A program made the position numbers and the translations under genes. A stretch of 64,000 nt of DNA, taken from Magnetovibrio sp. (GTDB taxonomy: Bacteria > Pseudomonadota > Alphaproteobacteria > Rhodospirillales > Casp-alpha2). Where the stretch lies: NCBI GenBank assembly GCA_002690705.1, contig NZFO01000011.1, positions 185,062 through 249,061 on the forward strand, given 5' to 3'. The notes under the pieces were generated by a model. The model saw nothing but the letters and a program-made list of their open reading frames with translations. It did no database searches and was not told the origin of the DNA. Of this stretch, positions 27,712-54,532 are shown one piece after another (within the stretch, counting starts at the first letter, position 1; the number at the start of each line of letters is the position of its first letter).

Positions 27712-28893
27712 ATGAAATCCGTTAAGTGTGGAAGGTTAGCCTTACTGTTGGGGCTCGTCTATCCGTTTATTGTATCAATGCAAGTCAAGGCCCAAGAGTT
27801 AAGTCCACTCCTTAACCGGTTGGATCGGTTGGAGCGTGATATCAAAACACTTAATTTCCAAGCCTCTGGTATTAACAATCGCATCGTCACAGAGGATAAG
27901 CGTACCAGAGACGACAGCTCAGAAACCGTTTCCAATGGAGCCTTTCCAAAATACGTAGCGTCACGTTTAAACCAGCGTATGAATAATTTAGAGCAAGATC
28001 TTCGTGCGGGTACTGGTAACATGGAAATGGCGACCCATCAGCTCCAGAAATTGACGGATCGGTTTGACAAATTGATCGGTGATATCGATTACCGGCTTGG
28101 TGTAATTGAAGGCGCTTTGGGTCTCAGCGGCCCCCCCTCCCTAGCTGGGCAATTCCGCGGGACAAACGATGTCCTACAGCAGGGCGTACCCGCAGTGCCG
28201 TCATCGGTTGGCGCACCGACCTCAGTGATTGCATCAGGGACTCCTTCACTGGGTCTTGGGCCTACAGCCGCAAATCCGCAGATTAAGCGGACTGAAACTG
28301 ACCAAACTTTTGGCTCTCTGGGAACAGTCTCCGCAAGAGCTGTTGGCCAAATGACAGTTAGTAAACCCGTGCTGCCATTAGGAAATAGAACCTCAACAGG
28401 TAATGCAAAACAAACAGTGCCAGCAACGCCCGGGCGGAGCACAGGATCTTCGCCATCAGTGGTTCAGTCCAGCCCAGCGCGAACAAATACGAGAATTTTA
28501 CCCCTTGGCAGTCCTCGGGAGCAGTACACCTATGCGTTTAATCTTTTGCGTCAAACCAATTATCAGCAGGCGGAAATTGCCTTAAAGCAATTTGTGGCGG
28601 AGAACGGTGATGATCCGTTGGCAGGTAACGCAAGCTATTGGTTAGGCGAGACATTTTACGTCCGCGCTGACTATCAGCAGGCGGCTCAGGTATTTTTTGA
28701 GGCCTTTCAGTCTAACCCTAAAAACCGAAAAGCACCGGATATGCTACTTAAATTGGGAATGTCTCTGGAACAATTAGGGAAGAATACGGAGGCGTGTGCC
28801 ACTTTTGAAAAAGTTGCCGTAGACTTTGGCAAGGCCTTTCCGCGCATCAAAAACTCTTTAGAACGCGAACGGAAGCGCGCCGCTTGTCCATGA
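27712..28893 (+). CDS. cpoB: Cell division coordinator CpoB (YbgF)
   Basis: CpoB is the periplasmic TPR protein that coordinates septal peptidoglycan synthesis with Tol-Pal. The 393-residue precursor has a signal peptide (ending about QVKAQ), an N-terminal coiled coil (LNRLDRLERDIKTLN and further heptads), a Ser/Thr/Pro-rich linker (about 145-260), and a C-terminal TPR domain (EQYTYAFNLLRQTNYQQAEIALKQFV, GNASYWLGETFYVRADYQQAAQVFFEAF). It overlaps the tilS start by ATGA. Confidence 0.92.
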   Translation: MKSVKCGRLALLLGLVYPFIVSMQVKAQELSPLLNRLDRLERDIKTLNFQASGINNRIVTEDKRTRDDSSETVSNGAFPKYVASRLNQRMNNLEQDLRAGTGNMEMATHQLQKLTDRFDKLIGDIDYRLGVIEGALGLSGPPSLAGQFRGTNDVLQQGVPAVPSSVGAPTSVIASGTPSLGLGPTAANPQIKRTETDQTFGSLGTVSARAVGQMTVSKPVLPLGNRTSTGNAKQTVPATPGRSTGSSPSVVQSSPARTNTRILPLGSPREQYTYAFNLLRQTNYQQAEIALKQFVAENGDDPLAGNASYWLGETFYVRADYQQAAQVFFEAFQSNPKNRKAPDMLLKLGMSLEQLGKNTEACATFEKVAVDFGKAFPRIKNSLERERKRAACP

Positions 28894-30232
28894 ACGGAAT
28901 CGACGCAGATATAGATTCTTTATCGGGGTTTTCCGCCCGCATGGAACATTTCGGACCATTTGAGCTATGCCCGCACATAGCCGTAGCTGTATCCGGAGGT
29001 AGCGACAGCATGGCGTTGACGCTTTTGGCAAATGAATGGGTGAAAACCAATGGTGGAAAAGTCACAGCTTTGACAGTCGACCACGGGATTCGCGAGACTG
29101 CTGCTGAAGAAGCCGGGCAAGTCAGGTCTTGGCTCATGACTCGAGGTATTGTGCATAAAACGCTAAAATGGAGGGGTGGTATTCCCACTAAGGGAATACA
29201 AAATGCTGCGCGATGTGCTCGATATTCGCTTCTTGACGACTGGTGTGGCACGAACTCTGTTCTCCATTTACTCGTGGGCCATACATTAAACGATCAGGCA
29301 GAAACTCTAGTTATGCGACTCCAGAGAGGCAGTGGTCCTGACGGCCTCGCGGCGATGAGCGCGGTGCGTGAACTGAATTCTTGTCGTATTTTAAGACCCA
29401 TATTAGGATCAGACCGGGGAAATTTGCGTGCATATCTCCGTGGGTACAAGCAGAAATGGTTGGTGGATCCGTCAAATATTGACCCTCGATTTGCCCGTTC
29501 TCAGCTCCGAAAAGCTGGTAAATTAGATTGCAATGATTTAGCGATAGCTGCGCGCCACTATGGGTTGGCGCGCCAATCACGAGACAAAGCAACAAATAGG
29601 ATGTTGGCGCGGTTTTGTCAGATTAATGCTCATGGGTACGTGCGGTTTGACTGCCATGATTTTTTGGCAGCGCCGAAAGAAATATCGATCCGTGCTCTCG
29701 GAAGAGTGATAGCCGCAGTAGGTGGCCGCGATTATGTTCCTCGTCAAAACCCGCTGCAGTCAATGCTTGGAAAGTTGAAATTGCAAAATTTTAATGGTAG
29801 CAGTCTGGGCCGTTGTGTTGTTTTAAAAAAAAAAATGGCCAAACAGTTGTTTACAGGGAGGGTCGCAATTTCCCTTTACCCATTAAATTTGAACCTGAGA
29901 GTGAGTTTCATTGGGATGGTCGTTTCCAAATTGCATTCGCAGCACGGCCTCGTTTTTCCTCCGGCGGATTGCATTTGACTGTGCTCAGTAAAGAACTTTG
30001 GGAAGGCCGACATCCTCAAAAAAGTCAGAATTTTATAGGGAATACTGTCTGCCCGCACGCTATGTTTTCGTTGCCCGTTCTGGCAGACGATCAGGGGCTT
30101 TTTTCAGCGCCACACTTAAATTATCGGCGTAATTCCGCGGGTAAGAGAGTTGAAGTTGTAGACAGTGGTTTTAAAAAGCTGCAATTTCAGCCGCAATTAC
30201 CCCTATCAAATGCTGGTTTTTGTGTTGCGTAA
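28890..30232 (+). CDS. tilS: tRNA(Ile)-lysidine synthetase TilS, interrupted at an A11 run
   Basis: TilS makes lysidine at position 34 of tRNA-Ile(CAU), which normally cannot be dispensed with. The first frame (28890-29978) has the P-loop SGGSDS (residues 35-40), TVDHGIRETA, GHTLNDQAETLVMRL and QLRKAGKL. At 29825-29835 eleven consecutive A residues follow GRCVVL. Continuing in this frame gives an unrelated tail. Shifting by one (frame starting near 29813) gives a normal TilS C-terminus (GQTVVYREGRNFPLPI, WDGRFQIAF) ending at 30232. One extra A in the transcript, or a -1 ribosomal shift, restores about 447 residues. Sequence error and real slippage are both possible. The start overlaps the cpoB stop. 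Confidence 0.8.
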
Positions 30233-30307
30233 TTGGGTTTCCATACTATTTGATATAGTAGAGCATGTTGCACGTCGGAACATGATAACGGTGAAAAGGA
30301 TGGTGGC

Positions 30308-32248
30308 GTGAATTTCAATAGGAATTTGGCACTTTGGGTGGTCATAGGTCTTTTAGTATTTGCCCTCTTCAACCTGTTTCAGGGATCTGGTAGCAGAGCT
30401 CCGCAAAATCAACTAGCCTTTTCAGAGTTCGTAGGCGCTGTAAAATCCGGTGAAATCTCGAATGTTAAAATTCAAGGTAATGCTGTGAGCGGGAATTTCC
30501 GCGATGGACGACATTTCCAGACCTACGCACCAGATGATTCCGGCTTAGTGGAGACATTAACGCAGCAAGGTGTCAAGATTACAGCGGCACCCTCCGATGA
30601 GGGATCACCCACGTTATTCTCGATATTGATCTCGTGGTTTCCGATGCTTCTTCTCATTGGTGTTTGGATATTTTTTATGCGTCAAATGCAGGCTGGAGGT
30701 GGCAAAGCAATGGGCTTTGGCAAGTCAAAAGCGCGGATGCTGACGGAAAAATCGGGCCGTATTACTTTTGAGGATGTTGCAGGGATTGACGAAGCCAAAC
30801 AGGAATTAGAAGAGATTGTTGATTTCTTAAAAGACCCTCAGAAATTCCAGAGGCTTGGTGGAAAAATACCAAAAGGATGTCTTCTCGTGGGCCCACCTGG
30901 TACGGGGAAAACACTCTTGGCAAGAGCCATTGCCGGTGAGGCCAATGTGCCATTTTTTACGATTTCTGGGTCGGATTTTGTTGAGATGTTCGTTGGAGTT
31001 GGCGCATCTCGTGTGCGAGACATGTTCGAACAAGGAAAAAAGAATGCACCCTGTATAATCTTTATTGATGAAATTGATGCTGTTGGCCGACACCGTGGCG
31101 CCGGCCTTGGTGGGGGCAATGATGAGCGCGAACAAACCTTGAATCAATTGCTTGTCGAGATGGATGGTTTCGAGAGTAATGAGGGCGTGATTTTAATCGC
31201 GGCGACTAACCGTCCGGACGTCCTTGACCCCGCATTACTTCGACCAGGTCGCTTCGATCGTCAAGTTGTTGTTCCTAATCCAGATATTCTTGGTCGTGAA
31301 AAAATCTTGAAGGTGCACATGAAAAAAGTTCCTCTGGCGCCTGATGTAAACGCCCGCACGATAGCTCGCGGAACACCTGGCTTTTCTGGCGCCGATTTAG
31401 CGAATTTAGTCAACGAGGCAGCGCTTCTTGCCGCCCGTGCGACAAAACGCGTCGTCACGATGGCTGATTTTGAGGCGGCCAAAGATAAAGTTCTGATGGG
31501 TGCGGAACGCCGTTCAATGGTTATGAGCGAGGACGAGAAAGAGCTAACTGCTTACCACGAAGCCGGGCACGCACTGGTGACTATTCATATGCCGAAGACC
31601 GACCCTCTTCACAAGGTTACGATCATCCCCCGAGGACGGGCCCTTGGCGTTACCATGAGTTTGCCGGAAAGGGACAAACTAAGTCAATCCGAGATGCAAT
31701 TGAAGTCATTATTGGCAGTTATGTATGGTGGCCGTGTCGCTGAGGAACTAATATTTGGTAAAGACAATATAACTACTGGTGCCGGAAACGATATCCAACA
31801 AGCAACTAACTATGCTAGACGAATGGTTACTGAGTTTGGATTCTCGGAGAAGCTGGGACCGTTGCGTTACGCAGACAATGAAGAAGAGGTTTTTCTTGGC
31901 CATTCCGTAGCTAGACAAAAGAACATGTCGGATGCCACTGCTGCGCTGATTGACGATGAAGTGAGAACTTTGATTGATCATGCGGAGAATGAGGCACGGA
32001 GAATCATCGGGGAACACCGTGATGAGCTTGAAACTATAGCCCAAGGACTACTCGAATTTGAGAGCCTCAGCGGCGATGAGGTTGATCAATTGTTGCGTGG
32101 TGAGGAAATAGTGCGGAAAGACGATGATATCTCCCCGCCTGAGGGTGGATTGAAGTCGTCCGTGCCGTCTGCGGGAGCGGTGAAGAGCGATAGCAGGAGT
32201 GAAGCAGAGATTACAGATCTTGGCGCGAAACCGCAACCCGAGGGGTAG
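30308..32248 (+). CDS. ftsH: ATP-dependent zinc metalloprotease FtsH
   Basis: FtsH is a membrane AAA+ protease that degrades membrane proteins and regulators. The 646-residue protein has two N-terminal membrane helices (about 7-25 and 103-125), Walker A GPPGTGKT (about 194-201), Walker [13 protein letters not shown], the second region of homology [17 protein letters not shown], and the zinc site HEAGH (near 417). The C-terminal tail after about 600 is acidic and low complexity. The start is GTG at 30308, as the conserved [13 protein letters not shown] begins there. It sits between tilS and folP, the usual order. Confidence 0.96.
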
Positions 32249-53311: not shown

Positions 53312-54532
53312 AAATTAATTGTGACCGGCAATGGTAAAGCCATATGGCAATGGCAGAGATCGGGCGTACTACTGCTGGGGGCGTTTGTCGTTTAGCACTG
53401 ACGAATGAAGATAGAGAGTCTCGTGATCTTTTTGTGCGCTGGGCTGAGGAAGCGGGGTGTGCGGTGCGGGTTGATGCTGGAGGTAATATATTCGCAAGAC
53501 GAGCAGGTTCTAGCGCCCTTGCACCCCCCGTGATGACGGGTAGTCATCTGGATACGCAGCCTTTAGGTGGACGCTTTGATGGTTCATACGGGGTACTTGC
53601 TGGGCTTGAAGTTGTGCGTGCGCTTAACGATGCAGATATCGAGACCAAATCTCCAATAGATGTGGTGGTATGGACGGATGAGGAGGGATGTCGGTTTTCA
53701 TCTAAAACAATGGGATCCATGATTTTTTCGGGGTTGATTAGTTTGGAAAATGTGCTGAGTGCTCTAGACCCTGATGGTAAAAGTTTTGGCGATGAATTAT
53801 CAAACATCGGTTATGCTGGGTCGGAGGTATGTGGCGGATACCCGATAAAAGCTTATTTCGAAAACCATATTGAACAAGGGCCTATATTGGAGCGAGCCAA
53901 AGTACCAGTTGGTGCCGTCATCGGTGCGCAGGGACAACGTGGTTTTTTTAATAACCGTCACGGGAGAGGAGGGACACGCGGGAAGTGTTCCGATGGAACA
54001 GCGCAAAGATGCATTTCTTGGTGCAGCTCGTATGACGGATGCCATAAGCCGAGCAACTCTGGATTTTGACCCAATACCCGTGGCGACGGTAGCTCATATC
54101 CGCGTGCGGCCTAACTCTCGCAATACGATCTCAGGTGAAACTATGTTTACCATTGATAGCCGCCACCCAGACGCAGATGTATTACTTGAGCTTGAGCATG
54201 CTATGATTGGGGCTTGTGAACAAATTGCAAAAGAGAGCGGTCTATCTTTTCATTATAAACATACAACCATTGCCGCACCTGTCAGCTTTAATGAGGGATG
54301 TATAAAAGCTATTCGCAAAGCCGCTAAAAATCGAAACATCCCATGTATAGATGTCTACTCAGGTGCTGGACATGACGCGTGTAAATTGGCTCAAATTACG
54401 CCGACGGGCATGATATTCGTTCCTTGTGAACATGATATTAGTCACAACGAGCGGGAGAATGCGTGCCCAGAGGATCTTGCAGCAGGAACGCAAGTTCTTA
54501 TGGACGTGATGATTGATGCCGCCAATAGGTGA
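53308..54532 (+). pseudogene. M20-family amidohydrolase (hydantoinase/carbamoylase type) with stop and frameshift
   Basis: The gene likely began at GTG 53308 (KINCDRQW), but codon 10 is TAA (53335-53337). A second start at ATG 53344 continues MAMAEIGRTTAGGVCRLALT with the metal motifs TGSHLDTQ, GRFDGSYGVLAGLEV and WTDEEGCRF. Near 53943 the frame slips at a run of seven T. Six T would give RGFLITVTGEEGHAGSVPM and the rest to 54532 (RHPDADVLLELE, YSGAGHDA, PCEHDISHNERE). Two lesions suggest a pseudogene, though the ATG and a slippage event could rescue activity. Homopolymer error is possible for the second. Confidence 0.75.

Follow-up and report, generated by a model that had tools for sequence, protein, structure and literature searches.

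A tilS gene broken, as deposited, at a run of eleven adenines in a Magnetovibrio genome assembly

TilS is the enzyme that most bacteria need for the correct reading of one codon. Type I and type II enzymes are separated by the domain CTD2, residues of which are reported to be essential in type I enzymes and which type II enzymes, such as that of Aquifex, lack (PMC12514573). Among the essential genes reported as frameshifted in clinical Mycobacterium tuberculosis genomes, tilS is named (PMC7022156); among the papers listed in a literature search, none reports a slippage site in this gene. In tssM1 of Citrobacter rodentium, a run of 11 A is reported to give about 20-25% shift through added A's (PMC4256274). 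The tilS gene described here resembles tssM1 in that 11 A lie within the gene, the unshifted frame soon stops and a conserved C-terminal domain is brought back into frame by an added A. It differs in that the tssM1 shift was demonstrated by mass spectrometry, blots and reporters, whereas tilS is known here from DNA alone, and in that its relatives lack the run and other genes of the same assembly are broken at long runs. The locus is also like those of Blochmannia and Buchnera, in which several core genes are shifted in poly-A/T tracts with no visible downstream decay (PMC3017870, PMC5009743). Those are reduced, AT-rich endosymbiont genomes, whereas the genome considered here has 3.03 Mb in 21 contigs, a GC content of 47% in the window and both mutS and mutL.

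The window is a stretch of 64,000 nucleotides of Magnetovibrio sp. (assembly GCA_002690705.1, contig NZFO01000011.1); isolated N letters occur in some stretches of this genome. A preliminary description of the window claimed that tilS (28890-30232) splits exactly at a run of 11 A, and sequence and frames agree with it (Table 1): read directly, the run counts exactly 11 A, with a T on either flank. By translation, the frame that begins at ATG 28890 (or TTG 28884) continues through the tract and then encodes residues unrelated to TilS up to its stop, and the -1 frame relative to this start is open across the tract up to a stop at 30230-30232. The coding score is best for the unshifted frame upstream of the tract and for the -1 frame downstream, the margin of the latter being modest in the first downstream stretch (1.9 vs -4.3). 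The upstream part matches TIGR02432 (E 9e-46) and, over residues 30-208, the PP-loop domain PF01171 (E 4.4e-47); the downstream part alone matched no family in profile searches. No second TilS copy was found, a PF01171 search of the genome giving no further match. In another genome of the family (G011; 2.8 Mb, 91% complete), TilS was found neither by protein nor by TIGR02432, which incompleteness may explain.

Table 1. Coordinates in the window of the two parts of tilS, the adenine run and the adjacent genes
Feature	Coordinates	Strand	Evidence and remarks
Gene overlapping the tilS start	27712..28893	+	Open frame; presumably YbgF/CpoB-like, by position and sequence
tilS, upstream part	28890..29824	+	311 full codons ahead of the tract, for the PP-loop domain and most of CTD1; TIGR02432, PF01171; 39-54% identity to the TilS of relatives
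11-A run, site of the frame break	29825..29835	+	Read directly
tilS, downstream part, -1 frame	29837..30232	+	131 codons and stop; blastp to the C-terminal part in 27/29 relatives; coding score; model
Stop codon of the unshifted frame	29976..29978	+	Translation; product of 362 aa from ATG 28890
Gene downstream of tilS	30308..32248	+	Open frame; taken to be FtsH, by sequence

The position of the run in the protein was analysed on a structural model of the TilS of a relative (L157; mean pLDDT 82.6). The model aligned with the structures of Aquifex (2e21; Z 22.5, rmsd 3.9), E. coli (1ni5; Z 21.7, rmsd 6.3) and Geobacillus (3a2k; Z 22.0, yet rmsd 15.1). Mapped onto its residues, the run falls in the turn that links strand 316-321 to strand 324-329. 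By this model of a relative, the tract would encode the turn of the final CTD1 hairpin ahead of CTD2, and the downstream part would comprise the last CTD1 strand and CTD2. The match to the Aquifex type II structures ends at model residue 327-331, which is four to eleven residues past the tract, while that to E. coli reaches residue 423; hence the break is, on the model, just ahead of the boundary between type I and type II. The TilS of the window carries the PP-loop domain with SGGxDS that is expected of a type I enzyme and, like type I TilS, most of its relatives are long and have CTD2; its own C-terminal part, however, lies in the -1 frame of the assembled sequence and not in the frame of the upstream part. 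Type II enzymes end on their own stop after CTD1 with no CTD2 sequence beyond, whereas in the window a frameshifted tail is followed by conserved CTD2 sequence.

The lengths of TilS were surveyed at 109 loci, that is, in 29 relatives and in the best 80 of 532 records from named genomes; among these 80 the nearest matches, MAGs labelled Magnetovibrio or Rhodospirillales, share 45-46% identity with the window's TilS (46% for the nearest), and records very close to the window's genome may be missing from the set. There was no frame at 19 of the 109 loci and a contig end cut the protein at 3, leaving 87 frames with their own stop: 22 end 291-335 residues past the PP-loop motif and 63 at least 380 residues past it, with one in between and one outlier at 159. 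The unshifted product of the window ends 328 residues past the motif. The short frames are those of the relative L019 and of 21 named loci, so that TilS frames, mostly alphaproteobacterial, form two length classes, type I-like and type II-like. In L019 the C-terminal part is shortened, after which the final residues of the long form are still matched; this frame shows no break.

We then compared both parts with the TilS of the 29 relatives. By blastp, E values of the downstream part against the C-terminal parts ranged from 3e-24 (same genus) to 4.4e-4 (32 residues only), and the two relatives left unmatched were L018, whose protein is cut by a contig end, and L019, whose TilS is short. With these two left out, the identity of the C-terminal part tracks that of the N-terminal part over 351 pairs of relatives (r 0.61). 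The window's 27 pairs have a mean residual of -0.013 from this line (residual sd 0.046), which places the window tenth lowest of 28 sequences. The downstream part thus appears as conserved as expected and shows no sign of decay. Conservation on both sides of the run, which the preliminary description had asserted, is borne out by the profile matches upstream and by the blastp matches downstream. The search of relatives for the run that it had proposed gave nothing: an A run of at least 7 at the hairpin was present in 0/29, the two closest relatives being only of the same genus. A frameshift site common to the relatives was therefore rejected, and the run is not kept among them as an evolved, programmed site would be. 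Two features of slippage rescue, namely an A/T run of about 8 or more lying out of frame inside a gene (here as assembled) and conservation of both parts, are found.

The alignment also indicates which tract length would fit the protein. From a conserved Cys to a conserved Arg, the hairpin spans 12 residues in 24 of the 29 relatives, 13 in one and 15-20 in four. The corresponding stretch of the window measures 38 nt, or 12 codons plus 2 nt, so that the assembled DNA exceeds the usual spacing by 2 bases; 9 A would restore the usual 12-residue hairpin, and 12 A would add one residue.

To judge how far the assembled length can be taken at face value, we counted long runs in the genome. It holds, both strands counted, 4 runs of 11 A and 17 of exactly 10, and in a 464-kb sample the counts of A/T runs drop about threefold per extra base; a run of 11 A is by itself unsurprising in this genome because of this fall and of the 4 such runs present. 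What is notable is an out-of-frame length well inside a conserved gene, not the 11-A run per se. Of 30 other genomes of the family, 12 have a run of 10 A and 18 have none, and one (G011) exceeds the window's own genome, a comparison that is only indicative as base composition differs. No other family genome that was searched has as many A runs of 10 as G011. A mutator through lost mismatch repair was rejected, as the mutS and mutL frames are open.

As we read the frames, eight of the 21 A/T runs of at least 10 lie inside genes, the other 13 being outside genes or at their edges. Five of the eight are in frame (three also by coding score, two by open-frame length only) and three are out of frame: those of tilS, pyrE and an M20 peptidase. 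The pyrE gene (L100:19134-19803) is broken at 10 T of the coding strand (contig 10, 49325-49334); its halves match NF001729 (7.5e-69 upstream, 1.4e-19 downstream) and it is the only clear copy in the genome, the other TIGR00336 match being weak (E 2.2e-5). The M20 peptidase gene (L045:1008-2157) is broken at 10 A (contig 7, 177547-177556), with halves that match NF005678 (1.7e-46 and 4.5e-51). By approximate profile coordinates, both genes carry about one extra base. G/C runs of at least 10 number 9, and of the 6 examined 2 are in frame, 1 is broken and 3 are undecided. The broken one lies in a methyltransferase-like gene (L099:6126-6888) that is probably out of frame at 11 G (contig 9, 36494-36504), as suggested by a PF08241 match of the upstream half (5.9e-7) and, for the downstream half, which matches nothing, by the best frame, which leads by a small margin. 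A run of 17 G (contig 4, 107225-107241), apparently at a contig end, lies beside a frame that we take to be a transporter's. In the window itself, an M20-type amidohydrolase (53344-54532) has the two halves of NF006769 (1.2e-86 and 2.9e-62) in different frames, with the break at or beside a run of 7 T (53943-53949).

Shorter runs behaved differently. Among the runs of 8-9 in the 464-kb sample, 32 are spanned by an open frame and flanked on either side by coding signal; another 41 fell into the class 'none' and 3 were doubtful. No break at a run of 8-9 was found by the frame test in this sample, although the class 'intact' demands a spanning open frame, so that a gene broken at such a run could land in 'none'; two flags (L083:14582, L086:11393) were rejected as breaks, both being gene junctions. 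Neither side of the 32 counted runs falls below a coding score of -0.8, compared with -4.3 for tilS and -4.0 for pyrE, which had scored 'intact' when both sides were summed and were reclassed as broken through their blastp or profile matches. The probability that all three breaks fall among the long runs (3/8 vs 0/32) is 0.006, which is only a guide, the long runs coming from the whole genome and the runs of 8-9 from the sample by a test that depends on open frames. In a comparison of orthologous places, 3/81 were flagged in the assembly, of which only tilS was trusted, against 1/17, 1/40, 2/29 and 0/32 in the comparison genomes; this set holds no orthologs of pyrE, the M20 peptidase and the other named broken genes. 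A frameshift-aware gene model proposed 109 candidate shifts in our sample (41 and 27 in two comparison sets), which were taken as mostly gene junctions; since it missed tilS, it was left out of the counts. Global indel noise of the assembly was rejected as the whole story, given the 32 in-gene runs of 8-9 in frame and the few ortholog breaks. Runs of at least 10 have an unreliable or drifting length in this consensus, because three of eight are out of frame and no break was found at 8-9. The change from 9 to 10 fits either failed counting of long runs or their real instability in a mixed population, and the assembled 11 A is thus an unreliable guide to the frame.

We therefore consider it probable that the 11 A are a miscounted, mixed-population or very recently slipped tract, and an evolved switch is disfavoured. 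This rests on the break itself, on the conservation of both sides, on the absence of the run from all 29 relatives and on the other genes broken at similar runs. The genome would have a single tilS, of a kind that is mostly long (type I) in relatives, whose frame is interrupted, in the consensus as deposited, by an A tract that is specific to the species and lies in the last hairpin turn of CTD1; runs of at least 10 would be unstable or poorly counted, and most cells would carry an in-frame tract (9 A or 12 A) or mixed lengths. We infer that the true or prevailing length is most likely in frame. Several observations sit less well with a wrong or unstable length: breaks are uncommon in the assembly overall (3/81 orthologous places flagged), the in-frame runs of 8-9 argue against a crude sequencing technology, and the hydrolase of the window is broken at only 7 T, so that breaks are not confined to long runs. 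The excess at tilS is +2, whereas a simple miscount is mostly of a single base.

The preliminary description had proposed slippage of RNA polymerase at the run as a possibility. On this reading the 11 A are real and become chiefly 12 A in part of the transcripts, which would yield full-length TilS together with the truncated protein of 362 aa. The mechanistic half of this claim holds: 11 A is above 8 A, the length under which the E. coli enzyme gave no detected activity (PMC6260861), insertions are reported to dominate at A/T runs and to increase with run length (PMC5574713), and tssM1 is a precedent in which 11 A need +1 (PMC4256274), as are the frameshifted core genes of Blochmannia (PMC3017870). 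It agrees also with the undecayed downstream part and with a likely demand for the product. Lysidine is probably needed in this host, because a tRNA-Ile2-like CAU tRNA is present and AUA is used: of three CAU tRNAs, one (L071) resembles what we take as its counterpart, E. coli tRNA-Ile2, neither a UAU tRNA nor any other isoleucine tRNA was found in 28 of 30 loci scanned (loci were given for 41 tRNA hits), and the long frames of the sample, with 122,655 codons in all, contain 1857 AUA codons. The part that a mixed TilS population is made at this site fares less well, as none of the 29 relatives has the run at the hairpin and the assembly breaks further genes at runs of at least 10. By profile spacing these genes need other corrections, with about one base too many, and insertions are reported to be absent from G or C runs (PMC5574713); slippage consequently does not explain the set of broken genes. 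With E. coli RNA polymerase, rescue was nearly nil for the A runs that were tried and 5-10% for 7-8 T, the sections of that report concerned making no mention of A runs of 11 (PMC6260861), and the part of the transcriptome survey drawn on here contains no case of a restored frame (PMC5574713). Slippage rescue is thus a possible alternative, to which we give a minor share of the probability and which nothing in the DNA favours over the simpler reading; no less likely, with pyrE and others broken at runs of at least 10, is the alternative that the preliminary description had itself put forward, namely that the tract length is wrong or unstable.

A real run of 11 A with a truncated product that suffices, as a type II-like TilS, or with a gene at the start of decay, appears unlikely. 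The end of the window's product falls within the range of the 22 short frames, and type II enzymes do without CTD2 (PMC12514573), the Aquifex match stopping a few residues beyond the tract. However, the product would lose the last CTD1 strand and gain about 47-50 unrelated residues, CTD2 residues are reported as essential in type I TilS (PMC12514573), and the downstream part has no excess divergence. We regard as highly doubtful the idea that a single gene provides type I and type II-like TilS alike, with slippage or slipped-strand length changes between cells setting how much full-length enzyme is made and hence AUA fidelity. Ribosomal -1 frameshifting on U UUA AAA AAA AAA A is the least probable reading and can nearly be set aside: the heptamers U UUA AAA and A AAA AAA are suitably framed and a -1 shift is what would join both parts, but no stimulator was found for them, as the downstream 80 and 120 nt fold worse than shuffles (z 1.52 and 1.26), 29701-29840 contains none of four Shine-Dalgarno-like pentamers, no Rfam match was obtained in 29600-30400 and the site is not conserved in the 29 relatives.

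If, as we favour, the tract is in truth or mostly in frame, the apparent breaks of tilS and pyrE at runs of at least 10 call for support from reads before either gene is annotated as a pseudogene. If the break is real, tilS would add one more case to the genes already known to be rescued by slippage, and such rescue of core genes would extend from reduced endosymbionts to a larger genome, where it would be tied to the reading of a codon.
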